From Uranotaenia lowii (Eukaryota; Arthropoda; Insecta; Diptera; Culicidae): a stretch of 64,000 nucleotides of DNA. Positions 3,576-60,600 of the stretch are shown here, piece by piece. The position numbers and the translations under genes were made by a program. How positions within the stretch are numbered: position 1 is the stretch's first letter; each line of letters opens with the position of its first letter. Below the pieces are notes generated by a model. It was not told the origin of the DNA. It searched no databases and was given only the letters and a program-made list of their open reading frames with translations. The DNA is taken from the NCBI RefSeq assembly GCF_029784155.1, contig NC_073692.1:241137756-241201755 (forward strand). Reading direction: 5' to 3'.

Positions 3576-3592
3576 TATATAAAATTTGAAAA

Positions 3593-4270: not shown

Positions 4271-4282
4271 AATTTAGAAATT

Positions 4283-4995: not shown

Positions 4996-6051
4996 TCTTT
5001 GAAAATGATCTTGGTGAAACATGACGAAATCGGCTTTCAAGGATGTGTCGCATCAAACAACTGTCATCCGCATTCGTACATATTGAAACGAGTGCTTCCT
5101 CGGCAGATAAAACAACTTTACGAAATTTGCATCCAGAACTAACTTCCTGCTGCACAGGAAGGAAGTTACCTACCAAATAGTGGCTAAGGAAAAAAAGAAG
5201 ACTCATATGATCCGATTTGGGGATAAGCCTTTTCGTTTTTCACTTTCTCTGTTTGAGGAAAAAAACTTGCCCGGTAGAGTTTTCCAAACCACAGTTCCTT
5301 TAACGTTATGCACTTAGATGGATCGTTGGTTACTCGAAATTTTCCTCGGGGATTGCGTTATGATGAATTGAATGATAAGATGATGTGAGTGCTTCGGATG
5401 AATGCGGAAAGGCGATTATCTTCGGGTGTTGTTGTGTGTGTTTGACTAGGCAGATTCGAAAGATATGTATGTATGTAGATGCAAATATATGAATGTTTGT
5501 AGATGCATTTTGATTCGGTGTGTCGAACACATTTTCCTCCCAGCAGCACCGACATCAAACTCCAGGCAGAGCATTAGCAGCCGCATATTGCAGGCCTCAA
5601 TAGAGATGTGACTTTTCAGATATGCAAATGCATTATGGCCGCACATGAAACATGAACGATTGTGTGGTGCAATTTCGCCATCCGGTGCATAGGTTTTGGG
5701 GGCCTTGGGTGTGTCTATTGGATTACTTTTGATGCGTTTATCATGTTTACGCCTCGCATCAAATGTTTATCAACTGGGAGAGTTTAAGGAACATTATGTT
5801 CCTTATGTATTTATTTTTTTTCGCCGAGGGTTTGGATTTCTTTTGAAAATAGTTTGAAGTGCAAAAATAACTAAATCCAGATTTCCTATTATTTTATTTA
5901 TACATAGATTTCTGGTTTAAAACTTCGGCTGTAAGATTTCAGATCGAATCTTTTAATTCATTATTAGAACTTAGATATAAGCTATTGATTTGAAACTAAT
6001 TGAATAAGTAGTCTTTTCATTATTTTCAATGAAATTTCAGGTAAATTAATT
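4996..6051. other. Unique-looking DNA, no gene called
   Basis: This stretch has a higher GC content than its surroundings and matches no other part of the window. Several short minus-strand frames overlap between 5330 and 5650, but none has a credible start, splice context or protein-like composition. It is probably host intronic or intergenic sequence. Confidence 0.35.
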
Positions 6052-20957: not shown

Positions 20958-21150
20958 GCTTTGGCCTTAAGGGCCAAGCCCTCTGGTTCGCACTTATTGA
21001 AACTCAAATCTATTTATTTTTATTTGGGATACTTCTTGAAAATCGAATCGAATACTTAGCTTGATTGAATGCGGGAACAAACAATAGGGGCACAATCTGT
21101 TAAACTTATCACCACACAACTACCACACGAGGCGCTCGATGAGAAAAAAA

Positions 21151-33583: not shown

Positions 33584-36500
33584 TTATACAGTTCTTGAAA
33601 CAGTTAAAATTTTTCTCCGGAACACGTTCCTCGAAACATCGAAGTCGAAATGCTCAGAAAAGCGATTGAACGTTTTCAATATGCCGATAAATGCACTGTT
33701 CGCTCCATAGTTGTTGAGACGAATAGGAACATAGAGCTGCAAAAACTGGTTTCTCAATCCTCGGGGGCGCACGCTGAGAGGAATGGCCTCCAGCAAAACG
33801 GGACAGTCAACTCTGGACGTTAAGAGATCAGCAACAACTAGAGCGCGCGTAGCGTTTTTGCGGGCTTGAAGCGTATCTAGGTCTATAAGGCGGCAGCGAT
33901 TCTCATAGCTTGGTAAACGGAACGGGTCTTGCCCGTTCAGATGGCGTAGGGCATACCGCAAGAAGCGACGCTGGATAGCCTCGATTCGTTCAGTCCCATT
34001 CTGGTAGAAAGGGCACCAAACAGCTGAAGCATACTCGAGGATGGAGCGAACTATACAGCAGTAAAGAATTTTCAGGCAATACACGTCTTTGAAGTCTTTG
34101 GCCATGCGAAATAAGAATCCAAGGTTTCTGGATGCTTTGTCGACGATGTAGTTTGTGTGAGTCTTAAAGTCCAGGCGTTGATCGAGAATAACGCCCAGAT
34201 CGTTGATGTGGTCCACCCGAGAAATGATTCCGTCTCCGAGAACGTACTCCGCAATAAGAGGGTGTCGCTTACGTGAGAATGATACGACCGAGCATTTACT
34301 GCGATTCAGGGGCAGGCAATTCATGTCACACCACTGAGCAAACACATGGAACTGCTGCTGCAGGAAATTGGTGTCCTCTTGGCTGTTTATGGTGTGAAAG
34401 AGTTTCAGGTCGTCGGCATATGCAAGTTTTTTGCAGTCAAGGAGCGAGAGTACGTCATTGAAATATATCACGAAAATTAGTGGTCCTAAATGACTTCCTT
34501 GAGGCACACCGGAGCAGGCAAGAAAATAGTTTGAAAAAGAGTCACCAATACGAACGGATAACTTTCGACCTGTTAAGTAACTGTGGAACCAGTGCAGAAG
34601 GGATCCACATAAACCCAGACGTTCCAGCTTTGCGATAGCGATATCGTGGTTCACCTTGTCGAATGCAGCAGAAAGGTCAGTATATATGGCGTCAGTTTGA
34701 GTTTTCCTAGCAAAGCTGTCTTGCATAAAAGATGTGAAGGTGAGTAAGTTAGTAGTCGTGGATCGTTTAGGCATGAACCCGTGTTGATCATTGGAAAGTT
34801 GGTGCTTGAAGAACGAATTAATGGGATCCAAGATAACCAATTCAAACAATTTGGCTATCGCGCATAGAGCTGAAATTCCGCGGTAGTTGTTAACATCTCT
34901 CTTGTCACCCTTCTTGTGAACAGGAAACATGTAGGCTTCCTTCCACAGTGAGGGAAAGATTCCAACATCCAGCCATGATTGGAAAATAAGCCGAATAGGA
35001 AACAGCAAAAGTGGCATAAAACGCTTCAAAAAAGTAGCAGGTATACCATCCGGGCCTATAGATGAAGAGTTTTTCAGCTTAGCTGTCGCTTTCGATATGG
35101 ATGCATCGTCGATTATGATACCGTTAAACGAAGAACCTATAGGCAATATATTTCTCACAGCTCTAGCCAGTTGCTCAGGAGAAATGGATCCAGTTGTAAA
35201 AATGCTAGAGAACTTCTCGGCAAATAGATCACAAATTTCGGGATCAGAGTTCACTGTGTCGCTATTCAGGAACATGTGAGACGGAAGCCCTGATTCTCTT
35301 CGCTGATTTTTCACGTGCTTCCAAAAAGATTTCGGACTGCTTTTGAAATTCTGTTGTAACCGATTAATATAATTCTGGTAGCAACGCTTACTGGCTTTCT
35401 TATAAGCAGAATTCAATTTGCGATATATGTCCTTAGTGTAGAGGGACTTATGCTTGTTGTAGTTGCGTAGTGCGCGCTGCTTGGCCGTCTTAAGTCTCCG
35501 AAGACTTAAAGTAACCCAGGGGGTCCGTAGATTGGTAGCCGTGCTGCGTTTCGGCACATGACGATCGATGATATAATTCAGGATGTTCGCAAACGTCTCC
35601 GCAGCTGCATTGGGATTAGAGAAATCGAGCTCAGCCTCCCAATCCACGGATTGCAGGACGAGGGATATAGCTTCGAAGTCAACGTTCTTAAAATCGTGAT
35701 AGAAGGAAGCGATTTTCTCTTCTGAGCCGTGTATTTTAGTGATATCGAGTGAAATCACTAAGGCTGGATGATGCGGGACAGTTTTAACAAGAGGAGCAGG
35801 AGCAGATTCAATCGCCGGATTCTTGATCCCTTCGTTCACGAAGCAGAGATCAAGCATACGGCCGTTTTCGTTTTCAATTTTGTTGATCTGTCGAAGAGTC
35901 GCGGTACTCAAGGAGTCTAGGAAGATGTTGGAGGATGCCGAGAATAAAGAACGAGCAGGATCCGGAAATAAAAAGCCGCTTGGGGAGGAGCACCACTTCA
36001 AACCAGGTAGATTGAAGTCACCGATGATGAGTATGTCGTCTGCCGGAGAGCAAATCGAGCTTACTTTAGAGAGGCAGAGCGAAAAAGATTCAGCTAAAGC
36101 CAAGTCTCCAGAACGGTCAGGGGGCACGTACACTACGCACAAGTAGAGTTTCCGATCTCCGAAATCAATACGAATCCAAACAAGTTCTAAATTGTCCCAG
36201 GAATCGTCTTCAATCGGCTGAGCTGGAAACGTAGATTTTACGGCAAGTAACACTCCACCACCAGTAGACTTTTTGCTGTTACGAGGACTACGGTCGCAAC
36301 GGAACAATGCGTAATCTGGGCCGATAATCTGACTAGAGAGGGTCCGGTCGTTGAGCCAGGTTTCGGTGAAGGCAATGACGTCGTAGCAGGAACACGAAGT
36401 CGCCAACAAGTAGTCAATCAAACAACTATTAACACCACCGACGTTCTGGTAAAAAATGTTGAAGGGTTCGGGCGATTCCAACGTAGCGCGGGATCGATGA

Positions 36501-37009
36501 TCACTGGAAAGGTAAATTCCATCACGCGGGGAAAAACACTTAGTAATATCATACTTGCCAGAAAGCGTTGGCTGGAGAACCCCTTCGCCACAGACGAACT
36601 CAGGGCCGGGACGACTGATGACGCTGGCAGGAAACAGCGCGACTGAGTCGAAGGGCTCAGGGGTCTCCGTAATTCCTAGTTCGTTGCGTCCCGGTGCTGG
36701 GGGCCCGGAAGTAGTCGTATGATTAACAAGGTTCGGAAGATCTAGCGGGATGCATCTGTGGTGGAATGGAAACAGGATACGCGAATGGCAAGTTCTAGAC
36801 ATAAACTGGCACTTGCCTGTAAAAGAGGCCTGGAGAACCCCGTCACCTCCAACGAACTCAGGGCCAGGACGACTGATGACGCAGGCAGGAAACAGCGCGA
36901 CTGAGTCGAAGGGCTCCGGGGTCTCCAAAAGGCTCGAGTCGATGCGTCCTGGTGTTGAAACCCAAGTAGAGGCAGGTGAAGTAACGGGCGGGACATGTTG
37001 ATAGCGCAT
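33584..37009 (-). CDS. ORF2: endonuclease and reverse transcriptase
   Basis: About 1141 residues from the first in-frame ATG at 37009; the frame stays open back to a TTG at 37060. The first ~180 residues are two copies of a repeated module (PEPFDSVALFPA.VISRPGPEFV). The endonuclease follows with NIFYQNVGGVNS, FTETWL, GGGVLLAV and LIIGDFNLPGLKW; the usual SDH motif reads PHHPALVI. The reverse transcriptase shows NNYRGISAL, the aspartate in TDLSAAFDKVNHD, SGVPQGSHLGPL and the catalytic YADD near residue 864-867. The C-terminus has the LLYCCIVRSILEY...PF and QRRFLRY blocks usual in CR1 and jockey proteins. There is no RNase H. Initiation is unclear because a third upstream module carries an in-frame stop. 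Enzymatic motifs are otherwise intact. Confidence 0.88.
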   Translation of the reverse strand: MRYQHVPPVTSPASTWVSTPGRIDSSLLETPEPFDSVALFPACVISRPGPEFVGGDGVLQASFTGKCQFMSRTCHSRILFPFHHRCIPLDLPNLVNHTTTSGPPAPGRNELGITETPEPFDSVALFPASVISRPGPEFVCGEGVLQPTLSGKYDITKCFSPRDGIYLSSDHRSRATLESPEPFNIFYQNVGGVNSCLIDYLLATSCSCYDVIAFTETWLNDRTLSSQIIGPDYALFRCDRSPRNSKKSTGGGVLLAVKSTFPAQPIEDDSWDNLELVWIRIDFGDRKLYLCVVYVPPDRSGDLALAESFSLCLSKVSSICSPADDILIIGDFNLPGLKWCSSPSGFLFPDPARSLFSASSNIFLDSLSTATLRQINKIENENGRMLDLCFVNEGIKNPAIESAPAPLVKTVPHHPALVISLDITKIHGSEEKIASFYHDFKNVDFEAISLVLQSVDWEAELDFSNPNAAAETFANILNYIIDRHVPKRSTATNLRTPWVTLSLRRLKTAKQRALRNYNKHKSLYTKDIYRKLNSAYKKASKRCYQNYINRLQQNFKSSPKSFWKHVKNQRRESGLPSHMFLNSDTVNSDPEICDLFAEKFSSIFTTGSISPEQLARAVRNILPIGSSFNGIIIDDASISKATAKLKNSSSIGPDGIPATFLKRFMPLLLFPIRLIFQSWLDVGIFPSLWKEAYMFPVHKKGDKRDVNNYRGISALCAIAKLFELVILDPINSFFKHQLSNDQHGFMPKRSTTTNLLTFTSFMQDSFARKTQTDAIYTDLSAAFDKVNHDIAIAKLERLGLCGSLLHWFHSYLTGRKLSVRIGDSFSNYFLACSGVPQGSHLGPLIFVIYFNDVLSLLDCKKLAYADDLKLFHTINSQEDTNFLQQQFHVFAQWCDMNCLPLNRSKCSVVSFSRKRHPLIAEYVLGDGIISRVDHINDLGVILDQRLDFKTHTNYIVDKASRNLGFLFRMAKDFKDVYCLKILYCCIVRSILEYASAVWCPFYQNGTERIEAIQRRFLRYALRHLNGQDPFRLPSYENRCRLIDLDTLQARKNATRALVVADLLTSRVDCPVLLEAIPLSVRPRGLRNQFLQLYVPIRLNNYGANSAFIGILKTFNRFSEHFDFDVSRNVFRRKILTVSRTV

Positions 37010-37240
37010 GCAGGATCTGTGGCTAGGTGAAACTTCATCACACAAGGAAAAAGTTATCAAACGAGATGAATACTTGCCTGAAGATGCAGGCTGGAGAACC
37101 TCGTCGCCGCAGTCGAACTCAGGGCTGGGACGACTGATGACGCTGGCTGGAAGCTGCGCGACTTAGTCGAGGGGCTCAGAGGTCTCCCAAGTGCCTAGTT
37201 CGTTGCGTCCCAGTGTAGAAACCCAACAAGTAGTAGCTAG
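36571..37240 (-). repeat. Three tandem ~260-bp modules between ORF1 and ORF2
   Basis: Segments starting CTGGAGAACC at about 36571, 36831 and 37090 repeat at 260- and 259-bp spacing, each continuing through GGACGACTGATGACGC and a TCGAAGGGCTC-like block. The two nearest ORF2 are read in frame as protein repeats. The outermost carries TAA where the others have TCA. The start of the endonuclease (ESPEPFNIFYQN) resembles the module start, so the array probably grew by duplication of the ORF2 N-terminus. Confidence 0.8.
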
Positions 37241-37359
37241 TCCTTTCTGAACCGGTGAAGCTTCGCAATACTATCTTAAAAGAGCTGAGGTCTCATCGTC
37301 GTTATCAGCTGAAGTGGGAGCCACATGATTCCCATGATCCTCGAAGGCACTAGATGAGA

Positions 37360-38274
37360 CTACCTCAAGGAAACTGGTCCGATCGTGGGCGTAATTGGCA
37401 CTACATTCGGGGTAGTAGGTTCCCCAACCGACCGAATGCGTTGAACAGATGGTGCAGGAGTCAGAGGCCGTCGGCTGTAGTTTTTTGGCTGGTCCACAAA
37501 TTCACGAAAGAGTATTCCAGAAGGCCAGGTCATGGGACTCAAGGCGATATTTTTGTGCACTGGGTCCAGTCCGATTTTGAATGAAACATATCTCCTAGTG
37601 GAGCCGTCAACGCCTTTGGGAAGCAATCGTTTCACCTCTACCGGCATGGTTGAATACAGGCAGCGAGAAACTATGGTTTCAACGTCTGCGTTCGTGATCT
37701 GGGGCTGAAGACCAGCTAAATACAGCCAGAACTTGGGTGTAGGGGGTGGAAGTACGATAAACGGGACTGAAAGGTCACTAAGGTCAACGGAATTTGTACC
37801 AGTCATCGTTGAAGAAACCTGCGATATTCCATCATTCCCGCGACGACGCTTGAAGTTCGGTAACGGGAATGTTTGAGGAGTTCCATTCAATGGAGGAAAA
37901 GCGTACGAAGTTGTAGGTGCATTATGAGTCAGAGCCATATCGTCGACTTTTTTGGACAGTAAGTCAAGCTGGTGAGTAAGCTTTTCGAGGACATTACCAG
38001 GGTAGTCGCTTTTAGCAGTAGGATTACCATCCGTTAAACAGAGATCATCGATATAACGGCAAATGCTTCGCCCGTTGAGTTCCGTACGACAAGGAGTACA
38101 AATAAAAATCAGCTTACCCTGCGTAAACAGTTCCCTATTGAGACGGATATTGAATCCACAACACTGCTGACTAATGTGGAAAAAATTGCCACAAAAACCA
38201 CATCCGATCGGCTCTAGGTCGTTTATCACCAATTGGCACTCTCCACACTGCTTTTTCTCCTTTGTGTTGGCCAT
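37360..38274 (-). CDS. ORF1: PHD-like zinc-finger protein of the CR1-like element
   Basis: The 304-residue product starts with ATG at 38274 (MANTKEKKQCGEC); an upstream GTG would also be in frame but is less likely. Residues about 9-60 form a Cys/His array CGEC..CGFCGNFFH..CC..CTPC resembling the PHD fingers of CR1-clade ORF1 proteins. A coiled-coil-like segment (LEKLTHQLDLLSKKVDDM) follows near residue 115. The C-terminal half contains PKFWLYLAGLQPQITNADVE and an RYVSFKIGL stretch, reminiscent of an RRM-like domain. Such proteins are thought to bind element RNA. The last residues are VPITPTIGPVSLR. The frame is intact; the RRM-like call is inference. Confidence 0.8.
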   Translation of the reverse strand: MANTKEKKQCGECQLVINDLEPIGCGFCGNFFHISQQCCGFNIRLNRELFTQGKLIFICTPCRTELNGRSICRYIDDLCLTDGNPTAKSDYPGNVLEKLTHQLDLLSKKVDDMALTHNAPTTSYAFPPLNGTPQTFPLPNFKRRRGNDGISQVSSTMTGTNSVDLSDLSVPFIVLPPPTPKFWLYLAGLQPQITNADVETIVSRCLYSTMPVEVKRLLPKGVDGSTRRYVSFKIGLDPVHKNIALSPMTWPSGILFREFVDQPKNYSRRPLTPAPSVQRIRSVGEPTTPNVVPITPTIGPVSLR

Positions 38275-39204
38275 AACGTCGATACTAAGCAAATTCGAAC
38301 AAATTCCGAAAGTCTTCGCAAGCACGAAATTTTAACAGCAATAGACGATAACACAACTTCGCATTGAATAACCTGGTCGAATAACGTACCGCTTTCGTAC
38401 ACCGTGCGAAGCGAAACACAACAAAAACAAACCGAACAACACAACTTGTCGCGCGAACGAAAAATGTTCTGGTGATTTTCGTGTCGGAAAAACGTTTTCC
38501 GGAGGAAACTCCGCTTTCCACTTGTTTTCGAGTTAGTGATCTTCGGTGTAAACAGCACAAGGACGAACGAGGCACAGAATTTCGACGAAAAAACGGTCAA
38601 TAAAATTGAAGACGGTAAGTACACTTATCAGCGATGGCGCGCGGTTGTAACTGTAATTTTGAAGTATCAAGTGAATTCGATACTTATATCGACTTTTTTA
38701 TTAGTCTTTTTCCAAAATATTTAAACATATGACTGAGAATAAACATCAAAAAACACTTTTGGCCAACTTTTTGTTCTATATACTCCTTTGTGAGCCGTCC
38801 TGATTTTTCAAAATCGTTAGAATTGTCCTGATTTTTGAAAAAGGCTCTTAAAATGTTCTGATTTATCCTGATTTAAAAAAAAATATTTAAATTATAACTA
38901 AATTTATATAGTTAAATGATAAGAACATCAAAAAAACCTTTTATAAAAAAGTTAACAATTTTAACCGATGATGATCTTTGGTTCAAATGATAAATGGTGT
39001 TTTTCGATATCAACTGCAGGCCAGCCAAGGTTCTTCTCGCTTCAGTTGCATAACATGAGACGTCTTCAGCACCTGGATTTCGCCTTTAGTTATGCAATCA
39101 AAGCAGAGCTGCATGTTATTTTCGTCAATTAAGTAGGGTCCTGAAAAATCCTTATTTTTTCATCGCGGTGTCCTGATTTTAAACAAAACCACCTGGCACC
39201 TCTG

Positions 39205-39436: not shown

Positions 39437-39441
39437 GCCTG
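39437..39441 (+). repeat. 5-bp target-site duplication GCCTG, left copy
   Basis: Repeated at 44189-44193, directly outside the 3' LTR. Confidence 0.85.
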
Positions 39442-39695
39442 TGTGTGGCGGTATATTTCTACGACTTCAGTAATGTGTACATATCTTCAGCGATTACACT
39501 ATAATCCTACATCGACATCGATTATCCCCTCGTACATACGTCAACACACATCCTCTCGCCGTCCCCTTCTATCGCCCGCGTCGGAAACGACCTCTCGCTC
39601 GCTCGACAGGGCATAGGAACAGCTCCCGACGAACATCGGCATAAATGGCCAGGTAAGACCCTCCGCGCCCTCACTAGTCCAGACCGGACCGCACA
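39442..39695 (+). repeat. 5' LTR, 254 bp
   Basis: It starts TGTGTGGCGG and ends CCGCACA, and matches the 3' LTR base for base by eye. Near its end it contains CCAG|GTAAGA (39650-39658), a strong splice-donor match that would sit early in the transcript. Confidence 0.95.
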
Positions 39696-39697
39696 TT

Positions 39698-39712
39698 TGG
39701 CGATCCTGCTAG
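39698..39712 (+). promoter_or_regulatory. Primer-binding site candidate
   Basis: TGGCGATCCTGCTAG begins two bases after the 5' LTR. tRNA 3' ends (CCA) pair with TGG at such sites. The donor tRNA is not assigned; TGGCGA starts are seen for tRNA-Arg-type sites but this is inference. Confidence 0.6.
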
Positions 39713-40062
39713 TAATTATTAAAATCGATTTTTATAAAAAGTGGAGAACCTAGGAAATCTGAAAGTATTCGGATGCTGAAGCGCCATTTTGAATTAAAGA
39801 TGCGTTGTTGATAATTTTCCCGGAACGATCCCCCGGTGTGATGCATATTTTTTTTATGAGTGAACAAAATAAAAAAAAAAGGTCGACAAAACGAAAAGAA
39901 ACTGGTTAAAGGTAAGATAGGGTTAATACGGTAATATTGATGTCGAGAATTCTGATAGTTGAAATACCATAGTCAGTGGAAATAGTTGAAAAAATTCTGG
40001 TTGCGAGGCAATTTTAGTTTTTAACCGTAGAGCGCAGCGAATTGTGCAATATGTTGCGGTAC

Positions 40063-40648
40063 CTGACGCGATGAGGACTTCCGTCAGCGGAAATGACAAA
40101 AAAAGTTGAGTTGACGCGATGAGGACTTCCGTCAGCCGAAAGATATTAAAGCGTTTAGGCGAGATGAGGACTTCCGCCTGGTGAATCGTAGAACTTGAGA
40201 ATATCTGACGCGATGAGGACTTCCGTCAGTTCAAGTATGTTGAAGCGTTTTGGCGAGATGAGGACTTCCGCCTGTTTAGTTGAGAAACTTGATAATATCT
40301 GACGCGATGAGGACTTCCGTCAGTCGAAAGATGTTGAAGCGTTTAGGCGAGATGAGGACTTCCGCCTGGTTAGTTGAGAAACTTGGTAATCTCTTACGCG
40401 ATGAGGACTTCCGTCAGCCGAGAGATGTTGAAGCGTTTTGGCGAGATGAGGACTTCCGCCTGTTTAGTTGAGAAACTTGATAATAACTGGCGCGATGAGG
40501 ACTTCCGTCAGCCGAAGAATGATAAAGCGTTCAGGCGAGATGAGGACTTCCGCCTGATTGGACGAGAAACTTGAGAATATCTGACGAGATGAGAATTTCC
40601 GTCAGTTCAAAAATGTTGAAGCGCTTGGCGAGATGAGCTATTCCGCCT
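40063..40648 (+). repeat. 94-bp tandem array of alternating hairpins with near-invariant loops
   Basis: Type A hairpins begin at 40063, 40111, 40205, 40299, 40393, 40487 and 40581; type B at 40157, 40251, 40345, 40439, 40533 and 40626. From 40111 onward each type recurs at exactly 94 bp (93 for the last B). Type A has stem CTGACG/CGTCAG around the loop CGATGAGGACTTC; type B has AGGCG/CGCCT around AGATGAGGACTTC. Stem changes are often paired or wobble: TTGACG at 40111, CTGGCG at 40487, and CAGGCG/CGCCTG at 40532. Exceptions are a mismatch at 40393 and T for A at the outer pair of three B stems. Spacers carry AGTT-GAGA-AACT, a possible GNRA-loop hairpin. Degenerate units continue to about 40921. 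Confidence 0.9.
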
Positions 40649-40925
40649 GGTTATCGATTTTCGACTTGTTATGACACGGCGTGAACTTCCGCAAAACGGA
40701 GTTGAAGCTATTCGGCGTGTCGTGGACTTCCGCCTGACATGTTGAAAGCTCCCAAATGTCTGACGAGATACGAACTTTTTCGTCTGTGAAACAAAATGCT
40801 TATGTGGTCGGTTAAGTAGAAACTTTAAAAATAACTTGCAGAAAGAGTCAGCGTTTTTGTATTTTTCCGCATTATACATTAAGACTTGGAAAGTGCCTGA
40901 CACAAGCTGGACTTGCGTTAGCTGA
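40649..40925 (+). repeat. Degenerate continuation of the hairpin array
   Basis: Motifs GGCG...TGGACTTC...CGCC (about 40714-40734), GACGA...TCGTC (about 40762-40785) and CTGAC...GGACTTGC...GTTAG (40897-40921) keep pairing ends and part of the GGACTT loop core, but the 94-bp spacing is lost. Confidence 0.55.
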
Positions 40926-41888
40926 AGGGACTAAAACTGACCTGCAGTATGTGAATTTTCATCTAGAGACATGCCTATTGGAATAACTTCAGTAAGATCA
41001 GTTAAACGAACGTACATTAATGTATATGTATGTTGAAGAATGCCTACTAAGAAAGTTTCAATTTAGTTTGAGAAGATTTGATTCCCTGCTCCGCAGAAAC
41101 GAGTACGAATATGAAGTTCTAAGTTACTAAGTTATTGCTTGATTATATGGTGTGAGAAATATTTGAAAGCTAACGTTCAATAGGATTGCAAATTTGGTAT
41201 TATGTAGAACTCCGTTATAAATATTTAAAATATAGCACTCAATAAGTTTTCGAATAACTGCATAAGCAAAATATGAATTTTATCAAACGCTATTTAACAT
41301 TATCGCTTACTTGAGAATTATTTTAATGAGAAAATTACTGTCGTTTCTTACTCTAACTGCTTTGATATTTTTTGGAGCGAGCCTTAGAGTACTACGAACG
41401 ATTACTAAAAAAAATGGATCAGATTGCCTGATTAACAAATCTACTGCTTCCGGTTTAACTTGGTAACGAAAAAGAGCAATGACCAACTTCAGCTTATCAA
41501 AACGAATTCTAAAGTATAAACAAGACGTAACGCACAGTTATACTGGTTATACTGCTATGCTACTGATTTCAAATATTTACCGAAAAAGCCTAAATGAAAT
41601 TATATATCGTTTTACATTCACACGTTTCATCCAGATAAATGCTGACTAGTTTTTACGCGATTTGGTATGCGTTCTAGACAACTCCGGGCACGGTTAAATC
41701 TGTTAAAACCTCTGATATAATCCAGACTGCAATCTCTTAAATGTTTCAAACCAATTATACCACAATTAAAGCAGTGGTTGGAGCAGAAATCTAAAAAAAA
41801 TGAATCCGTATTAATAAGCAATTATAAGTTATTTTTGGGAATGGTATATTGTTAGGGATTAGTTAAATCGTCATCTGGTTGGTTTTGG
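40926..41888. other. LTR-element interior, AT-rich, no coding seen
   Basis: No gag-pol motif or repeat is recognisable in this part of the interior. Confidence 0.5.
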
Positions 41889-42398
41889 CTAGCTACGGTG
41901 CACAGCGGAAGATGTTGATTCGGACATCCAGCCGATGTGGTTAATCTGTGAAAAAGGAGTTGATTCGGTGCACAGATTGATTGAAAGCAGCAGAAACAGC
42001 TTTACGATTTTCTGGTTGATAATCCCTGCCAATTCTGCGACCTCCGACGACACATGTAGAATATTCTTTATCAGCCAGATACATGCGACGATGGACTGCA
42101 TCCTTTCAGCAACAACAGGCAATTGTCGCATAGTTCTCTTCGCCGTCGTAATTCACTAGCGTTAGGATTGTTTGCTTTTTCGGAATCACTTAGTAACTAG
42201 AATGGCATCCACCGGTGAGATAAGGTATATGGGTGGTCTCGCAGCTTGTCCCTCCTTGTTTGCTACAGGCTTTTGATGATAGCGTATTACAATTTTGAGC
42301 CGCAGATGAATACGCATAGTTTCGTAAAAACGCTGCTTCAGATTCTGATTCGAATTGCGGGTTGCAGTCAGCCGAAGCAGGATGTCTTCCGATGACAT
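41889..42398 (-). other. Possible captured coding sequence in the LTR element (uncertain)
   Basis: Two minus-strand frames lie in a less AT-rich block: 42398-42186 from an ATG (MSSEDILLRLTATRNSNQNL) and 42131-41889 (MRQLPVVAERMQSIVACIWL). They are separated by about 55 bases, which would suit a short intron, but I could not find a clean donor and acceptor joining them. The composition is more protein-like than elsewhere in the interior. Neither matches a family I know. This could equally be chance. Confidence 0.2.
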
Positions 42399-42628
42399 TC
42401 GTTGTTTATTTTTTTTTCTAATGACACTTCACACGCCACAAATTGTTTCACACTCTAACTTTTGGCTACCCCTTAAAGGCGTAAAATTGACCCGTTATTG
42501 AGAACCCCCATGATCTGTCAAATAACGGGTCATTATATCGGATCAATATTACCCCTTATTTTAAAAGGCTCGATTCCCTTCAAAAGGGGTAGTTTTAGAT
42601 GCGTTACATTAAAAGCGTTGAATTCGGC

Positions 42629-42770
42629 ATGATGAGAGATGTTGTGGTAAGCTGTAAAAATTTGAATTGGTTTCTTTTCGAATTCATATTCATTCATTTT
42701 ATTTCAGCAGCACAGCAAAGTTCCGGACGAGCCAGAACTTAACATGAGAACACGCACCGAGGCGATCTAA
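42629..42770 (+). CDS. Predicted spliced 26-codon reading frame in the TIR element
   Basis: ATG at 42629 opens six codons (MMRDVV) to a donor GTG|GTAAGC at 42647. After removal of 42647-42707 (61 bp, acceptor TTTATTTCAG) the frame continues QHSKVPDEPELNMRTRTEAI to TAA at 42768-42770. The splice is phase 0 and keeps the frame. A second intron, 42779-42836 (58 bp, AAG|GTAAGA to CTTTCAG|G), follows the stop. An AAATAAAA lies near 42965. The product is unknown; it may be a captured host fragment or a non-coding spliced leader. Confidence 0.35.
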
Positions 42771-42778
42771 AATTGAAG

Positions 42779-42836
42779 GTAAGATTGATGGTTAATGTTT
42801 TCTTTACTTAAAATCTAATCTTTTGCTTTCTTTCAG
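42779..42836 (+). other. Apparent 58-bp intron
   Basis: The donor AAG|GTAAGA, a CTAAT branch-like motif 20 bases from the end, a pyrimidine tract and TTTCAG|G make a complete small intron on the same strand as the 42647-42707 intron. Confidence 0.5.
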
Positions 42837-43217
42837 GATTCATCGTAAGATAATTATAATTTTCAAGCGGGGAAATCGAATATTCCATCAATCATCTATA
42901 ATATAAAAAAAGTTATTCAAATGAATCTAAATCTAAAAAAATGGCATCCGAATAAACAAAATGAAATAAAACATGTTGTTTTTATTTATTTTCCAGGAAA
43001 CACATTCTCTTTAAGCAGAACCTTTAATATCCACCATACGGAAGCTTTTGAAATAAGGGGTAGTTTTCATCCGCTGCGTTTGAAATAAGGGGTAAATTTC
43101 ATCCGGTGCAAGCGTTATCAAGCTGAGTACCCCTTAAAGGGTACAGCGGCTGTATCCTTTAAAAGGAGTTCTCCCAGTCTCATTGAATAACGGGTCAAAA
43201 GTATTCGTTAAGGGGTA

Positions 43218-43693
43218 CACAGCAAAAAAAAATGTAACGCTGGAAGATGTAATTTGTGGAGACGACGTAGTGTTAGGGCTTTTTGTTGTTATAATACATT
43301 TTAACGACGTACACGAATGCGAACATGTCGTGTAGTGTAATATCACAACCTTCTATGTGATATCGCATCAAGTAGTCAATGTTTTCCTCAATTGACGTTC
43401 AAATGTTATTCATTTCAAAAAGGAAGAAACGGATTACGGACCTCAGCTGTATTTGTTTGGCTTGTAAGTACAACTAAAATTTTATAAAAATGTAAGCAAA
43501 ACCATAGGTTCAAATATAATGTGATTATTTTTCATTTTTAGGCAGATTCGGAAGGTTGGCATTTGCGGGTCAAAAATAATTCTATAATTATCAAACAGCC
43601 GGGTACATCAAGAAAATGTAATATTAGGTACCATTTGCGACTCAAGTTATGTGCAGGTATTTGATGTAATATCACGACACTTTTTTTGCTGTG
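43218..43693. mobile_element. TA-flanked MITE inserted in the right TIR of the 42455-43707 element
   Basis: Termini CACAGCAAAAAAA are inverted at both ends and flanked by TA (43216-43217, 43694-43695). Removing the element and one TA restores the host TIR (GGGG-TA-GCCAAAAG against GGC-TA-CCCC), which confirms the boundaries. It is 476 bp and non-coding. Confidence 0.8.
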
Positions 43694-43919
43694 TAGCCAA
43701 AAGTTAGCGTGCACGAAAAACGGAAAATATTTAACCATATCAATCCTAATTTGTGTTAACCGGGCTGAATATGTGCGGTTACTAATTCAAGAGTAACATT
43801 TGAATAAGATATATACACATTTTGTATTTTAATAAAGAAAGTTATTTAAAAAAAAAGATTTGCAAACACGACGATCGCAGAGCAATTAGAGAAATAGATT
43901 TTCTCATTCGATTTTTTTT

Positions 43920-43934
43920 AGAGTAGAAGGGGGA
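43920..43934 (+). promoter_or_regulatory. Polypurine tract of the LTR element
   Basis: AGAGTAGAAGGGGGA directly precedes the 3' LTR. Such purine runs prime plus-strand DNA synthesis in LTR elements. Confidence 0.75.
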
Positions 43935-44188
43935 TGTGTGGCGGTATATTTCTACGACTTCAGTAATGTGTACATATCTTCAGCGATTACACTATAATCC
44001 TACATCGACATCGATTATCCCCTCGTACATACGTCAACACACATCCTCTCGCCGTCCCCTTCTATCGCCCGCGTCGGAAACGACCTCTCGCTCGCTCGAC
44101 AGGGCATAGGAACAGCTCCCGACGAACATCGGCATAAATGGCCAGGTAAGACCCTCCGCGCCCTCACTAGTCCAGACCGGACCGCACA
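43935..44188 (+). repeat. 3' LTR, 254 bp
   Basis: Same length and sequence as 39442-39695, followed by the duplicated target GCCTG (44189-44193). Confidence 0.95.
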
Positions 44189-45214
44189 GCCTGTAATTCG
44201 TATTGAAAAACACCATTTAGGGGAAAACTGTACAAGACGCACCAGCGCACAGTGGTAAAAAATGCGAAAAAACGTGATCGTTGCTTATAACTTTTTTAGT
44301 TCACATTTTAGCTTATTCGTGTGTTCGGAGAAGTTTGTCAGTAAATTCAGCTTTGTAATAAAAAACTTTTATTTTTCTGATTAATCCCCTTACAAGCGAG
44401 ATAAAATTTCTAACTTTTCTGTTATAGGTTTTAGCTCTTTGATGTCTTCGACAAACTTGTTTAAAATTGATTCTAAAATAATTATTCTCCGAGTTATAGC
44501 CTGATGCTAAAAATACAAAATTTGCGCTTCCAAACCTTTGGAAACACACATAGTAGAATGCGCTATAGTTTCATAGAAATCGTTGTTTTTAATACAAACA
44601 TGGAAAAGTAAAATTGATGTATCTCGCTCGGATACTAGTGGATACAGATGATTGTATCAGCATCTTGTAGGCGAAATCTTTGACTTCATTTTGCATCTAA
44701 AGCGAGCAGCCCGATGTTGCCCGGTGTTTGAAGAATAAGGCGTGAAGAAGCATTATTTTCGGAAATCTTTTTTTACATGTTCAACAAAGTGGTGTATTTG
44801 AATAAGACACACAACTTTGTGGAACATATTATTAAACTTAAAATTAACTGAAAAAAGTTATTATTTATTAACTGATTTTTAGAGATAAAGTTTCTTATCC
44901 AGCCGATAACTCGGAGAATAATTATTTTAGAATCTTGACATCTGAGACAGTTGTAGAAAATTTGATTTTAAACAAGTTTGTCGAAGATATCAAAGAGCAG
45001 GGCCGTAGGAAGAACTGGCTCATGGGGGGGGTTTTGATGACAAATTTTTCTCAATAACATTTTTGCTTAAACAATGCCTACACAAGTGAAAAATTGTATA
45101 TGTACTTAGTGCAAATTATTCAAATTAAAGTTATTTTGCATTAAAAGTTGTTTATTTTTGAAATTAAGTCCTAGGAGAAGCCAATTTTGTTCATGAAGCT
45201 TTCAGAAATATAGG

Positions 45215-49268: not shown

Positions 49269-51100
49269 ACTAGCTGATCCCGTACGAACTTCGTTTCGCA
49301 TTTAACTTTAACACCGATGATTTTGTATTTGTTTGGTAATTGGTTCGAATTTCCACCAAACAATTGCTTAAAATGCTAAACAGAATTTGCACGCGACCTG
49401 TTTGCTTGTCTACCAAACGGAAATTTAAAATAAGAAATTGATTGACCGTCGAAAAGAACTCTCGTGTACGAATTTTTGTCTTTTTCGGATGCATCACAAC
49501 GAATTATGTCTAAAATATTAACGACCCCTTTTCTGTCGTCTGATTAGAAATTTTAATTCATAAATCAATTGTCCGTTTTCTGGATCATAATGCATAATAA
49601 AACAATTATTGCAAAAACATTAAACAGTAAATGTGGACGACCCCTTTTTCTGTCGTCTTATAGAAAGTTTGTTATCATGAATCGATTCCTCGTCCTGCAA
49701 AACTCTCGTCTTTAAATTTTTGCCTCGATATTGCAAAAAAAATCGAAAATATTATGACGAAGCCTTTTACTGATTCATTGTCAAAATTTGACACGTGAAA
49801 TCAAAAACATGTGCTGTAAAACTCCCATGTGCAAATTTCCATTATAATCCGATGTATAATCAAGACAATGGGGCTTATTCTGAAAGTCACGTGATGTGCA
49901 AAATTTCACATCGTTGTGCCGACTCCAGAAACCACTCTAGGCTAAAAGTTTCAGCTCAAATGTCCTGTGATCGATTTTTGGAGCACATTCATACTAACGT
50001 TTCTTCTCTGAAACATTTTCTGAAGTCAGGATAAAGAAGTGAAATTTTGTGAGTCACATCACTCGACTCGCAGAATAACCCCCAATATAGCCAAAACAGT
50101 GAAAAGATATTATGGATGATCATTTTTGCCGACCCCTGACTTGAGATTTGAAATCTGAAACAATTGCTCGTCTCTCTAAGCTTCTATGTGGAAATTTTCA
50201 TCTCTATCCAATGCATGATAACGTCAATATAGCAAAACATTGAACAGTTTATATGGACTCAATTATTCGTTCCTTGAAACTCCCACGTACCAAGTTTCCA
50301 TTTTAATCCAATGTATTTAAGCATTAATATCGCAAAAACAGTGTTAATATGGACGACCCCTTTGGTCGACCTCTGACCCTGAATTTGAAACCTAGAATCG
50401 ATTGATCGTCATCCACAAAATACTCTTATGCAAATTTTCATCAAAAACAAATCTAAAATAACGCCAATATCGCAAAAACATTGAACAGTTGATATGGCCA
50501 ACCCCTTTTGCCGACCCCTTCTACAAAATTTGATAACTGGAATCGATTGCCCATTCCTTAAAATCCTCGTCCGGAAATTTTCATCTCAATCCAATCTATA
50601 TTAACGGCAATATAATAAAAACATTTAAAAGTTGATATGGACGACCCCTTTGGCCGACCTCTGACCCTGAATTTAATACCTGGAATCGATTGCTCGTACC
50701 TCAAAATGCTCATGTGCAAATTTTCATATCAATCCAATGCAAAATAACGTCAATATGGTAAAAACACTCAACAATTCATATGGACGACCCCTTTTGCCGA
50801 CCCCTGACACAAAATTCAATACCTGGAATCAATTTCTCATCTCTCAAAACCCCCATGTGAAAATTTTTGTCACAATCCAACGAAAAATAACGTCAATATC
50901 GCGAAAACAATATTTGTCTTGTATGGACGACCCCCTTTAGAAAGGGTCATCTAAAAATCTGAAAACGTTTTTCATCATTCCTGGTTCTAATAAGTATCCA
51001 TGCCAAATTTCAGCTCTCTAGCTCTTAAGATGGATGAGCCTATAGAGGACAAACAAACAAACAAACAAACAAACCCACAGAAATTGCTTTTTATATATAG
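49269..51100 (+). mobile_element. Repeat-rich element, unit 1 of a head-to-tail pair
   Basis: The unit begins ACTAGCTGATCCCGTACGAA and ends with a run of ACAA repeats (about 51051-51075) followed by TTGCTTTTTATATATAG. Its body is a diverged array of ~143-bp repeats containing GGACGACCCCTTT, TCGATTG and GCAAATTTTCATC. No coding frame is credible. Superfamily unknown to me. Confidence 0.65.
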
Positions 51101-53324
51101 ACTAGCTGAACCCGTACGAACTTCGTTTCGCTTTAAATCATTGGTACGTCAAAATGAGTTTAGAAAATGAATTCGAAACATTCTTTCGACAATTTTGGGG
51201 AAAAAATTCAACAGTGTTTAAATTTGCTACTTTTACTATTACTTGAAATTCAAATTAAACGGTTGATTGGATTTTTATTAAAATTTATGTGAGAGTGTTT
51301 TCTTCTCGATCGGTTGCAAAATCTAGACATTATGGCAGAAACATGTACTATTTCTTTATGTGCACGACTCTTTAGCTCGACCTTCACACTTAAATTGGTA
51401 TCAATTAACTGCCTCCAATAAAATTATTGCACAAAACACTGAACTTTCAATGAAACCCTCTTTTTCTGTCCCATGGCCCGAAATTCGATAATTGAAACCA
51501 ACGTTACGTTCCTCAAAACTCCCTTGTGCCATTTTTCCTTTTCAAATTATGTGTAAAATAACGTCAGGAACTTGAAAACAGTGAACAGTGAATATAGACG
51601 CCATTTTCGCCGACCCTTGACACGGAACATGCTACCTGGAGTCAATTGCTCATAGTTTATAACCCTCATCTGAACATTTTCATCTCAATCCAATACATGA
51701 TCACGACAATATCGCGAAAACAGTGAGCAACTGACATGGACGGCCTTTTTTTTGACCACGATTCAAAACTTGACACCTGAAATTAATTATCTTTTCTGTT
51801 AAACTTCCATGTGTCAATTTTCATTACAATTCTATGCTCAATCAAGAGAATATCGTAAAAACAGTGAACAGATAATAACCCCTTTTGCCGACCCCTGAGT
51901 CAAGATTTGAAACCAGAAAGCAAAAGAGCGTCCCTTAAAACTCCTATGCGGAAATTTTTATCTCAATCCAATGTAGAATAACGTCAAAATCGCAAAAACA
52001 TTAATCAGTGAATATGGACGACCCCTTTGGCCGACCCCTGACCCTAAATTTGATAACTGTAATCGATTGTTCGTCCCTCAAAACACTCATGTGCTAATTT
52101 TCATCACAATACGAACTATAATAACGCCAATATCGCAAAAACATTCATCAGTGACCCTAAATTTAATAACTGTAATCGATTGTTCGTCTCTCAAAACACT
52201 CATGTGCAAATTTTCATCACAATCCGGTGTATAATAACGCCAATATCGCAAAAACATTAATCAGTGAATATTAATCAGTGAATATGATCAGTGAACTGAC
52301 CCTAAATTTGATAACTGTAATCGATTGTTCGTCTCTCAAAACACTCATGTGCAAACTTTCATCACAATCCAATGTAAAATAAAGCCAAAATCGCAAAAAC
52401 ATTAATCAGTTGATATGGACGACCCCTTTTTGCCGACCCCTGACCCTAAATTTGATAACTGTAATCGATTGCTCGTCTCTCAAAACACTCATGTGCAAAT
52501 TTTCATCACAATCCAATGTAGAATAACGTCAAAATCGCAAAAACATTAATCAGTGAATATGGACGACCCCTTTGGCCAACCTTTGACCCTAAATGTGATA
52601 ACTGTAAACGATTGTTCGTCTCTAAAAACACTTATGTGCAAATTTTCATCACAATCTGGTGTATAATAACGCCAATATCGCAAAAACATTAATCAGTGAA
52701 TATGGACGACCCCTTTGGCCGACCCCTGACCCTAAATTTGATAACTGTAGTCGATTTCTCGCCTCTCAAAACACTCATGTGCAAATTTTAATTACAATCC
52801 GGTGTACAATAACGCCAATATCGCAAAAACATTAATCAGTGAATATGGACGACCCCTTTGGCCGACCTCTGACCCTAAATTTGATAACTGTAATCGATTG
52901 TTCGTCTCTCAAAACACTCATGTGCAAATTTTCATCACAATCTGGTGTATAATAACGCCAATATCGCAAAAACATTCATCAGTTGATATGGACGACCCCT
53001 TTGGCCGACCCCTGACCCTAAATTTGATAAGTGCAATCGATTTCTCTTCTTTCAAAATACTCATGTGCAAATTTTCAACACGATCCGACAAAAAATAACG
53101 TCAATATCGCGAAAACCATATTTGTGTTGTATGGACGACCCCCTTCAGAAGGGGTCATCCAAAAATCTGAAAACATTTTTCATCCTTCCTGGACCTAATG
53201 AGTATCCATGCCAAATTGCAGACCTCTAGCTCTAAAGACGGCTGAGTCTATAGAGGACAAACAAACAAACAAACAAACAAACAAACAAACAAACATACAG
53301 ATAATTGCTTTTTATATATATAGA
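51101..53324 (+). mobile_element. Repeat-rich element, unit 2 of a head-to-tail pair
   Basis: It starts ACTAGCTGAACCCGTACGAA directly where unit 1 ends and closes with ACAA repeats (about 53262-53295) and TTGCTTTTTATATATATAG. The array is most regular at 52017-53000, where GGACGACCCCTTT recurs at 52561, 52705, 52848 and about 52991. The direct abutment shows one copy inserted at, or was duplicated from, the end of the other. Confidence 0.65.
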
Positions 53325-58411: not shown

Positions 58412-59161
58412 GCGTTAATTCGAAAATCCGCGTAAAAAAAACCGCGTTAATTCGAAAATCCGCGTAAAAAAAACCTCGTTAATTCGAAAAACCGCGTAAA
58501 AAAAACTATTTTAATTAAAAATATTCGCGCGAAAAAGCACGTTACTTAAAAAACGCGTAAGAACCATGATTATTTGAAAATTTGCGTACAATGATAGTTT
58601 ATTTTTAAGATAAAAAACAAAATCAATTAGATTAATGGAATAGTAGAATATAGTGAGGCTTATTTGACAGTGTGGAATTCAGATCGTCTGATGTCTCATG
58701 TCTCAGGTCTCATGTCTTAGGTCACATATCCCAGGTCTCATGTCTCATGTCTCATGTCTCAGGTCTCAGGTCTCAGGTCTCAGGTCTCGTTAATTCGAAA
58801 ATCCGCGTAAAAAAAACCGCGTTAATTCGAAAATCCGCGTAAAAAAAACCTCGTTAATTCGAAAAACCGCGTAAAAAAAACTATTTTAATTAAAAATATT
58901 CGCGCGAAAAAGCACGTTACTTAAAAAACGCGTAAGAACCATGATTATTTGAAAATTTGCGTACAATGATAGTTTATTTTTAAGATAAAAAACAAAATCA
59001 ATTAGATTAATGGAATAGTAGAATATAGTGAGGCTTATTTGACAGTGTGGAATTCAGATCGTCTGATGTCTCATGTCTCAGGTCTCATGTCTTAGGTCAC
59101 ATATCCCAGGTCTCATGTCTCATGTCTCATGTCTCAGGTCTCAGGTCTCAGGTCTCAGGTC
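58412..59161 (+). repeat. 375-bp tandem duplication
   Basis: 58412-58786 recurs at 58787-59161, including the landmarks AGATCGTCTGATG (58681 and 59056) and CCTCGTTAATTCG. The copies look identical, so the event is recent. Each copy ends in a start of the 7-bp array. Confidence 0.88.
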
Positions 59162-60600
59162 TCATGTCTCATGTCTCAGGTCTCAGGTCTCAGGTCTCAT
59201 GTCTCATGTCTCAGGTCTCAAGTCTCATGTCTCATGTCTCATGTCTCAGGTCTCATGTCTCATGTCTCATGTCTCATGTCTCATGTCTCATGTCTCATGT
59301 CTCATGTCTCAGGTCTCAGGTCTCAGGTCTCAGGTCTCAGGTCTCATGTCTCAGGTCTCAGGTCTCAGGTCTCAGGTCTTATGTCTCATGTCTCAGGTCT
59401 CAGGTCTCAGGTCTCAAGTCTCATGTCTCATGTCTCAGGTCTCATGTCTCATGTCTCATGTCTCATGTCTCATGTCTCATGTCTCATGTCTCATGTCTCA
59501 TGTCTCTTATCTCAGGTCTCAGGTCACAGGTCTCATGTCTCAGGTCTCATATCTCAGGTCTCATGTTTCATGTCTCTGGTCTCATGTCTCATGTCTAATG
59601 TCTCAGGTCTCAGGTCTCAGGTCTCAGGTCTCATGTCTCATGTCTCAGGTCTCAAGTCTCATGTCTCATGTCTCATGTCTCAGGTCTCATGTCTCATGTC
59701 TCATGTCTCATGTCTCATGTCTCAGGTCTCAGGTCTCAGGTCTCAGGTCTCAGGTCTCAGGTCTCATGTCTCATGTCTCAGGTCTCAGGTCTTAGGTCTC
59801 ATGTCTCATGTCTCAGGTCTCATATCTCAGGTCTCATGTTTCATGTCTCTGGTCTCATGTCTCATGTCTAATGTCTCAGGTCTCAGGTCTCAGGTCTCAG
59901 GTCTCATGTCTCATGTCTCAGGTCTCAAGTCTCATGTCTCATGTCTCATGTCTCAGGTCTCATGTCTCATGTCTCATGTCTCATGTCTCAGGTCTCAGGT
60001 CTCAGGTCTCAGGTCTCAGGTCTCAGGTCTCATGTCTCATGTCTCAGGTCTCAGGTCTCAGGTCTCATGTCTCATGTCTCAGGTCTCAGGTCTCAGGTCT
60101 CAGGTCTCAAGTCTCATGTCTCATGTCTCATGTCTCAGGTCTCATGTCTCATGTCTCATGTCTCATGTCTCATGTCTCATGTCTCATGTCTCATGTCTCA
60201 TGTCTCAGGTCTCAGGTCTCAGGTCTCAGGTCTCATGTCTCATGTCTCAGGTCTCAGGTCTCAGGTCTCATGTCTCATGTCTCATGTCTCAGGTCTCAGG
60301 TCTCAGGTCTCAAGTCTCATGTCTCATGTCTCAGGTCTCATGTCTCAGGTCTCATGTCTCATGTCTCAGGTCTCATGTCTCATGTCTCATGTCTCATGTC
60401 TCTTATCTCAGGTCTCATGTCTCATGTCTCATGTCTCATGTCTCAGGTCTCATGTCTCATGTCACAGGTCTCATGTCTCAGGTCTCATATCTCAGGTCTC
60501 ATGTTTCATGTCTCTGGTCTCATGTCTCATGTCTCAGGTCTCAGATCTCAGGTCTCAGGTCTCAAGTCTCAGGTCTCAGGTCTCAGATATCATGTATCAC
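59066..60600 (+). repeat. 7-bp satellite array (TCTCATG / TCTCAGG)
   Basis: About 1.5 kb of 7-bp units occur in two main spellings that differ only at one base, T or G, with rare variants (TCTCAAG, CTTATG, CACAGG). Blocks of units recur in longer patterns (for example GTTTCATGTCTCTGGTCTC near 59563, 59838 and 60502), showing higher-order duplication. Because 7 is not a multiple of 3 and the unit creates no stop, all three plus frames stay open; the resulting SHVSCL/SQVSGL peptides are artefacts. Confidence 0.93.

Follow-up and report, generated by a model that had tools for sequence, protein, structure and literature searches.

In a 64,000-nucleotide stretch of the Uranotaenia lowii genome, here called the window, a codeless LTR retrotransposon carries a row of hairpins with a nearly constant loop, and the same hairpin recurs in the same place in distantly related codeless elements of this mosquito. 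This common position suggests a shared tag for borrowing the machinery of another element. The loop is under strong sequence constraint, for which the evidence is much stronger than that for the stem, whose inner part is probably paired in RNA. We tentatively read the array as a multivalent cis-acting RNA signal that helper proteins would recognize in trans, with packaging as its most likely role, and we give this reading a chance a little short of even.

The window element and its hairpin array

The window element is a recent, non-autonomous LTR retrotransposon insertion without recognizable coding capacity (Table 1), as the earlier note had proposed. This assignment follows from the identical LTRs, the GCCTG duplication, the primer-binding site, the polypurine tract and the lack of a Pfam-matching open reading frame: ten of the 13 listed frames were scanned and none gave a family at the cut-off. 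The longest frame of the list (98 aa) runs on the strand opposite to the array. The primer-binding site is presumably of the tRNA-Arg type. The last exon base of the donor-like site in the 5' LTR would be 39652, 44 nt upstream of the LTR end. Tandem repeats between the LTRs are present both in this element and in its complete relatives. We rejected a reading of the array as protein-coding repeats, as the 94-bp and the 45/49-bp spacings change the frame and no long ORF is kept.

Table 1. Features of the LTR element and of its hairpin array, in window coordinates
Feature	Position	Strand	Basis or remark
LTR retrotransposon, complete	39442-44188 (4747 bp)	+	LTR pair, primer-binding site, polypurine tract, target-site duplication
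Target-site duplication GCCTG, left copy	39437-39441	.	
5' LTR, 254 bp, TGTGTG...GCACA	39442-39695	+	identical to 43935-44188
ATG GCC AG, then putative donor CAG|GTAAGA	39645-39653	+	sequence pattern
Primer-binding site TTTGGCGATCCTGC	39696-39709	+	directly 3' of left LTR
Hairpin A1, CTGACG-C-GATGAGGACTTC-CGTCAG (the type A sequence)	40063-40087	+	fold, covariance model
Hairpin A2, outer pair U.G	40111-40135	+	fold, covariance model
Hairpin B1, TAGGCG-A-GATGAGGACTTC-CGCCTG	40156-40180	+	fold, covariance model
Hairpin A3	40205-40229	+	fold, covariance model
Hairpin B2, second outer pair lost	40250-40274	+	fold, covariance model
Hairpin A4	40299-40323	+	fold, covariance model
Hairpin B3	40344-40368	+	fold, covariance model
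Hairpin A5, 5'-arm mismatch	40393-40417	+	fold, covariance model
Hairpin B4, second outer pair lost	40438-40462	+	fold, covariance model
Hairpin A6, pair 4 is G.U	40487-40511	+	fold, covariance model
Hairpin B5, longest stem	40532-40556	+	fold, covariance model
Hairpin A7, diverged loop	40581-40605	+	fold, covariance model
Hairpin B6, diverged loop, second outer pair lost	40625-40649	+	fold, covariance model
Decayed units	40712-40786	+	covariance model: 40712-40736, E 5.3; 40760-40786, E 0.22
Subterminal stretch, about 200 nt, polypurine tract at its end	43720-43934	+	aligns with the other eight complete elements
Polypurine tract AGAAGGGGGA	43925-43934	+	abuts 3' LTR
3' LTR, 254 bp	43935-44188	+	100% identity with 5' LTR
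Target-site duplication GCCTG, right copy	44189-44193	.	

RNAfold and a covariance model recognized 13 hairpins of 25 nt each at 40063-40649, in agreement with the at least 13 of the earlier note. Type A reads as hairpin A1 of Table 1 and type B as (T/C)(A/T)GGCG-A-GATGAGGACTTC-CGCCTG. The 94-bp period that had been claimed spans 40112-40653, and the irregularities described earlier, a mismatch in the unit at 40393 and a lost outer pair in three B units, were found again. Two alternating types had also been reported; strict alternation, with a spacing of 45/49, begins only at 40111, because the units at 40063 and 40111 are both of type A.

The covariance model was trained on the 13 window hairpins and run with search filters off. 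It recovered its training hairpins at E <= 4.6e-6 and the two decayed units of Table 1, and over the 64-kb window it found nothing outside the array; its only other window matches were antisense on five array hairpins (E 1.9-3.1). A diverged unit proposed at 40897-40921 was lost on this analysis, since it folds alone but was not recovered at E <= 10. The loop GATGAGGACTTC occurs exactly at 11 places (40070-40550) and once with two mismatches, at 40588. With up to two mismatches it has 14 matches in 64 kb against 4.25 +/- 2.0 expected, a count matched by none of 100 shuffles of the window.

In most units RNAfold gave an outer stem, one unpaired C or A, then a G-C and an A-U pair and the eight-base loop UGAGGACU; the unit at 40393 folds differently. 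A longer hairpin with a G4-C9 pair and an AGGA tetraloop was rejected, being about 1 kcal/mol worse and without covariation support. The whole array folds no better than its shuffles (z -1.07 on the plus and -0.61 on the minus strand). In a 1.6-kb leader fold the inner-pair probability exceeds 0.5 in only 7 of the 13 hairpins, the other six not being the dominant local fold.

Further features of the element and its surroundings were recorded. The segment 42466-43218 is bounded by the inverted repeats CTACCCCTTAAAGGCG.../...TTAAGGGGTAC, which are separated by about 750 bp and have 30-nt arms that are 73% complementary, and further copies of AATAACGGGT and AATAAGGGGTA lie inside it; the segment looks like a small nested terminal-inverted-repeat element. 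Just upstream of the polypurine tract, at 43831-43870, AATAAA is followed by an A-rich stretch, and intron-like GTAAG...AG pairs occur at about 42779-42836 and 43465-43541, as if a piece of a spliced, polyadenylated transcript were present, to judge by these patterns. Elsewhere in the window, two non-LTR retrotransposons with endonuclease-RT frames occupy the minus strand at 15956-20966, where the frame includes RNase H, and at 33584-38331; in both a second long frame without Pfam match adjoins. About 218 copies of the 7-mer GTCTCAT fill 59061-60585, near 32-bp CCGCGTAAAAAAAACCGCGTT-type repeats. Tandem 143-bp (and 113-bp) units at 50343-50909 and 52039-53116 bear no relation to the hairpin array.

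Recurrence across the genome and anatomy of the complete elements

Our search of the organism's own genome covered 1,077,602,043 bases in 2009 contigs. The 14-mer GATGAGGACTTCCG had 351 exact matches, 155 forward and 196 reverse, against 0 and 1 on the two strands for its reversed control, by which we reject both chance and a single-copy curiosity. Loci were drawn from 100 listed matches of the 351, which gave 24 sites after joining within 10 kb. Twenty of these were analysed, the remaining four holding one match apiece, and 19 of the 20 bear arrays or remnants with 2-17 loops, among the matches listed. Periods are about 39-43 bp in L104, L107, L109, L116 and L117, 83 bp in L111 and about 84-95 bp in L105, L110, L112 and others, and the spacers differ between loci. 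With L135 and L136, both picked by LTR similarity, there are 22 array loci in all, holding 248 hairpins with at most one loop mismatch, or 218 in 20 loci if these two are left out.

The earlier note had named presence in only one copy as a refutation of its reading. The LTR family is indeed a single copy: as BLAST query, the window LTR had 13 genome matches, its own two at 100% and the rest at 72-75%. The array, in contrast, is found in many other elements. Of the 22 array loci, 12 have a primer site no more than 600 nt upstream and in the same orientation, perfect or, in two of them, with one mismatch; no array among these 12 is antisense to it. The array begins about 0.3-0.6 kb past the site, and a locus has 11-17 hairpins, or 7 in one case. 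Of the 19 array loci found by motif only, nine have a primer site and six a complete LTR pair. In the other 10 of the 22 no such site is within reach, so that fragments or other places bear the array as well.

Several candidates were set aside or noted in passing. On viral contigs, 91 stretches carried the motif, the 80 listed having one match each; they were taken as chance, and none of the viral matches had hairpin arms. Other genome contigs yielded only two single bacterial motif matches. L119 is a lone motif in an open frame (KLADEDFRQM..., 4833-5565 in motif orientation) and was rejected as an array, being due to chance or coding. L114/L115 and L116/L117 are near-identical pairs, about 2 Mb and 0.8 Mb apart on C2, and represent segmental duplications or repeated assembly. 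At L103, a frame with KEFIGCLQYLAISSRSDI, presumably a copia-like RT/RNase H, occupies 3546-4356 (motif-oriented) just upstream of a decayed array that has no primer site within reach.

Nine complete codeless elements carry the array: the window element, six found via the motif and two via LTR similarity. Array-free relatives would mostly have been missed, because elements were found by motif or LTR similarity. The LTR pairs are 98.9-100% identical, with lengths of 452 (L104), 249 (L105), 282 (L108), 303 (L110), 284 (L112), 283 (L113), 282 (L135), about 283 (L136) and 254 bp (window). The elements are 3.8-5.6 kb long; all nine have the primer site and a polypurine tract, the tracts being similar, and the first hairpin loop follows, in sense, 294-572 nt past the 5' LTR. 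A clear 5-bp duplication flanks seven, that of L135 has one mismatch, and L112 has no clear one. A donor-like GGTAAG or GGTATG is found 44-56 nt from the LTR end in seven of the nine, the remaining two having no LTR donor under this pattern. Between elements, LTR identity over ungapped columns is 86% for window and L135, 95% for L112 and L136, and otherwise 45-76%.

In blastn comparisons of the window interior with the eight others, the array was the largest block in seven of eight (best eight alignments per pair); L135 aligns with the window interior over most of its length, and no minus-strand match was obtained. From the set of all alignments, we tallied matches outside 340-1130 of the internal region. 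All eight aligned over a stretch that begins 180-240 nt upstream of the 3' LTR and extends into it; L110, L112 and L136 also aligned over the first 70-100 nt past the LTR, and L113 over a single 76-nt piece. The possibility that the array is the sole common internal part was rejected on these alignments. The nine elements have the ends and the array in common, but not most of the 3-5 kb interior. Common parts that are mainly termini and array fit the expectation for cis-acting signals.

Constraint on the loop and pairing of the stem

The ten central window units contain no change at 130 loop and bulge positions, 6 changes at 120 arm positions, confined to the outer four positions of the 5' arm, and 30 at 220 spacer positions (Fisher p 5e-7 for loop against spacer, 0.016 for arms against spacer). 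The near-constant loop of the earlier note was borne out, as was its broader claim of an RNA element under constraint in the 5' leader: it is the loop above all that is constrained, the array is in sense, and it recurs in the 22 loci. A selection by stem alone (GRCG-N-12-CGYC) gave the same picture. It picked 168 hairpins from the 12 primer-site loci, in which 11 of 12 loop positions are 95-99% constant and position 5 varies (A 108, T 51, C 6, G 3). The loop consensus is GATGWGGACTTC, as RNA GAUGWGGACUUC. The consensus hairpin has an inner stem GRCG/CGYC, an unpaired base that is usually C or A, a G-C and an A-U pair and an exposed loop.

For the stem, nine distinct window hairpins were compared. 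Their covariation score was reached in 3 of 500 shuffles, the two pairs altered on both sides in 121 and the number of pair types in 344. Of 72 cells, 69 are paired on the plus strand and 64 on the minus strand, the difference being due to five G.U cells. Within one type, off-consensus stem cells are paired in four cases and broken in five, with no double change. For the A/B arm differences, full pairing would be kept by chance with a probability of 0.012-0.033 in the two B types that pair fully; the values for the TTGGCG type are 0.15-0.19 when it is derived from A and about 0.017 when it is derived from B. The 94-bp unit has no comparable stems besides the two hairpins, and the two 143-bp arrays, used as control, gave 0 and 1 comparable stems and no paired double change.

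Over all 248 hairpins of the 22 loci, 934 of 992 cells of the inner four pairs are paired (94%). Shuffled 3' arms gave 871.2 +/- 4.3 globally and 883.8 +/- 4.6 within loci, and 934 was reached in none of 2000 shuffles of each kind. Without pair 4, which separates A from B, 699 of 744 cells are paired against 683.6 +/- 2.0 (global) and 687.7 +/- 2.8 (within-locus), again reached in none of 2000 shuffles of either kind. Such arm shuffles overstate covariation, because decayed units are altered on both sides of the stem and because the A and B lineages are old and share ancestry. In a count of events, from which the duplicate loci L115 and L117 and six decayed hairpins were dropped, 892 cells comprised 825 reference cells, 31 single changes that kept and 30 that broke the pair, and six double changes, none of them unpaired. 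Counted as distinct events, 21 single changes kept and 29 broke the pair, and four were double, all paired. The covariation that the earlier note had claimed is only modestly supported: it strongly exceeds shuffles, in part through A/B ancestry and decayed units, but not in the tally of single events. G.U outnumbers A.C by 31 to 16 cells (p 0.04) and by 21 to 16 distinct events (p 0.51). With decayed units kept, the four 41-bp arrays have 12 kept and 8 broken single changes and 7 kept and 3 broken double changes; two decayed L116 units hold all three double-broken cells and one double-kept cell.

Among the 218 hairpins of 20 loci, 85 stems are GGCG/CGCC, 63 GACG/CGTC and 13 the mixed GGCG/CGTC; besides these main types and wobble forms, AGCG/CGCT, GGTG/CACC and AGTG/CACT occur once each. 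We rejected the two outer pairs, 1 and 2, as a conserved feature, as they are not kept across loci: 270 of 496 cells are paired, a value reached in 498 of 2000 global and in none of 2000 within-locus shuffles. Apart from the A/B split, the evidence for compensatory change is modest.

Proposed function and rival readings

A codeless element would need its RNA to be picked by proteins supplied from elsewhere. In our preferred reading, its transcript would present the hairpins as a series of identical sites for protein binding, and a protein supplied in trans would by avidity select array-bearing RNA. The likeliest such protein would be Gag, or some other protein that binds nucleic acids, from an autonomous LTR element with the same primer tRNA, and the helper would package and reverse-transcribe the codeless RNA. 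Because the array lies 3' of the LTR donor-like site in seven of the nine elements, unspliced genomic RNA alone would carry it. Retroviral packaging signals are likewise confined to unspliced genomic RNA and also consist of hairpins between primer site and coding region, past a donor-like site; they usually comprise a few different hairpins, in contrast to 11-17 copies of one here. Hairpins in sense behind the primer site, as such a signal would have them, were found in all 12 primer-site array loci. Being multivalent, in sense, near the primer site and past a donor-like site, the array has the position expected of a packaging signal. We also considered that the loop might kiss its own element and rejected this: the nine elements have no exact loop complement of at least 9 nt (8-nt complements occur in L110, L112 and L136), and this suggests a trans-acting partner, presumably a protein.

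Following the earlier note, a gag-pol-coding carrier of the hairpin was sought. No LTR-type coding carrier came to light among the loci searched: we found no autonomous LTR element with the hairpin, and no gag or LTR-type pol. Nine frames behind primer sites were scanned, of which seven had no Pfam family at the cut-off; the frame in L111 encodes an endonuclease-RT of the non-LTR type, the one in L121 a partial RT with DUF6451. The two ORFs behind the primer site of L116 (at 1098) had no Pfam family at the cut-off. Mag-lineage gypsy elements are a candidate kind of helper. In Culex quinquefasciatus, the Mag-lineage elements cqgypsy_24, _25 and _66 are coding and have 5' UTR tandem repeats, and cqgypsy_25 has a tRNA-Arg primer site, according to the part of Marsano et al. 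(PMC3286476) available to us. A stronger version, in which one hairpin is the passport of distantly related codeless elements and one helper reads GAUGWGGACUUC, is possible though somewhat doubtful. Since recombination can move arrays from one family to another, their shared presence counts for less when taken by itself. We rank a helper Gag first and a host export factor as the second RNA choice, with a DNA-level array as the main non-RNA rival.

An array that acts as DNA, whether as enhancer, insulator or chromatin-binding repeat, with the block CGNGATGWGGACTTCCG as a double-stranded protein site, appears unlikely to us. This block is a long ungapped conserved sequence containing ACTTCCG, which we take to be an ETS-like core, and the 3' arm is invariant in the ten central window units, as a DNA-level reading would have it. 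A double-stranded site, however, needs no matched arms, and the A and B arms change together (85 and 63 hairpins against 13), although this is due in part to the common descent of the two types. The double changes, paired in six cells and unpaired in none once decayed units are dropped, and the sense orientation of all 12 primer-site arrays also argue against it. The repeats of Drosophila gypsy (Su(Hw)) and ZAM act as DNA sites and are not known to form a hairpin that has paired arm changes. Like our array, they are located in the 5' UTR of an LTR element, where they are cited as regulatory or insulator repeats (in the available part of PMC3286476).

We regard it as quite unlikely that the array is an export or stability signal for unspliced RNA, similar to a constitutive transport element and read by a host protein. 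A codeless element cannot provide its own export factor, and seven of nine elements have an LTR donor-like site upstream of the array, to which the window element adds acceptor-like patterns at 42708, 42837 and 42997. Such splice-site matches are weak evidence, as the plus strand of the whole window has 17 donor matches of at least eight of nine positions, and the LTR donor pattern is missing from two of the nine complete elements.

The array could also be a mobile satellite-like repeat, functionless for the element, which spread by recombination or template switching and was homogenised, with palindrome correction during template switching imitating covariation; we hold both the repeat and this imitation to be decidedly unlikely. 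Unit periods vary widely, the window array has decayed at its 3' edge, and single stem changes, as events, are broken at least as often as kept, all of which a functionless repeat would explain; the repeats of codeless Culex elements, moreover, are not family-specific (PMC3286476, available part). What it would not explain is that loop and inner arms are constant among loci whose spacers, periods and LTRs have diverged, that the array keeps its sense orientation and a similar distance behind the primer site, and that nine insertions, recent because their LTR pairs are 98.9-100% identical, all carry it. C/D-box snoRNA-like units or self-cleaving ribozymes in the manner of plant retrozymes are highly improbable and were rejected, since the weak Rfam matches to archaeal C/D sRNAs, sR44 (17.2 bits, E 0.17) and sR60, score far under the gathering values of 45-50, no Rfam family reaches gathering in the 64 kb, and the units lack paired C/D boxes, the D-box-like CTGA being missing from B units and mutated in the A units at 40111 and 40393.

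Among known systems, LARD and TRIM elements resemble the elements described here in their size (here 3.8-5.6 kb), the lack of coding and the presence of cis signals only; to our knowledge, a shared hairpin array is not among their defining features. The A-repeat of Xist is a short tandem RNA repeat that forms a multivalent binding array. Motif, host and setting differ from those of the hairpin array, and we use it as an analogy only, together with the binding of ERV RNA by SPEN, which has been tied to the A-repeat (PMC7282817, available part).

The closest likeness is to the 38 codeless LTR families with tandem repeats of C. quinquefasciatus (cqUNK), and the window element is of the same kind as these, as far as the available part of their description goes (Marsano et al., PMC3286476). 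They share near-identical LTRs, a primer-binding site beside the 5' LTR, a polypurine tract, lack of coding and tandem repeats between the LTRs; the Culex families have no known master copy, and none came to light here among the loci examined. In Culex, the primer site is tRNA-Arg in 11 of 38 rows of Table 2 of that paper, periods include 93, 92, 46 and 49 bp, duplications are of 4-5 bp where given, and the repeats have no assigned role. No row combines the LTR length, element length and period of the window element. The cqUNK repeats are not family-specific, and here a constant-loop hairpin is common to many families at a similar place; the word hairpin has no occurrence in PMC3286476. Neither tRNA nor PBS occurs in the available part of PMC3118150. 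A full-text search of the accessible open-licence literature for GATGAGGACTTCC returned unrelated subjects only, and what was available there on insect LTR packaging signals, stem-loops, LARDs and tandem repeats contained no such hairpin. In the open-licence literature available to us, a hairpin common to several families thus appears to be undescribed, though it may have been reported before in other places.

The shared hairpin offers a concrete candidate for the signal by which helpers recognize codeless LTR retrotransposons. The motif can serve as bait for the helper protein, and loop plus primer site GCACATTTGGCGATCCTGC as a search key to catalogue the whole guild. If the passport reading is true, array copy number would tune the strength of mobilisation. 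Even if the signal acts in DNA or is one for host RNA, the array is an unusual repeat that is conserved across families rather than drifting.
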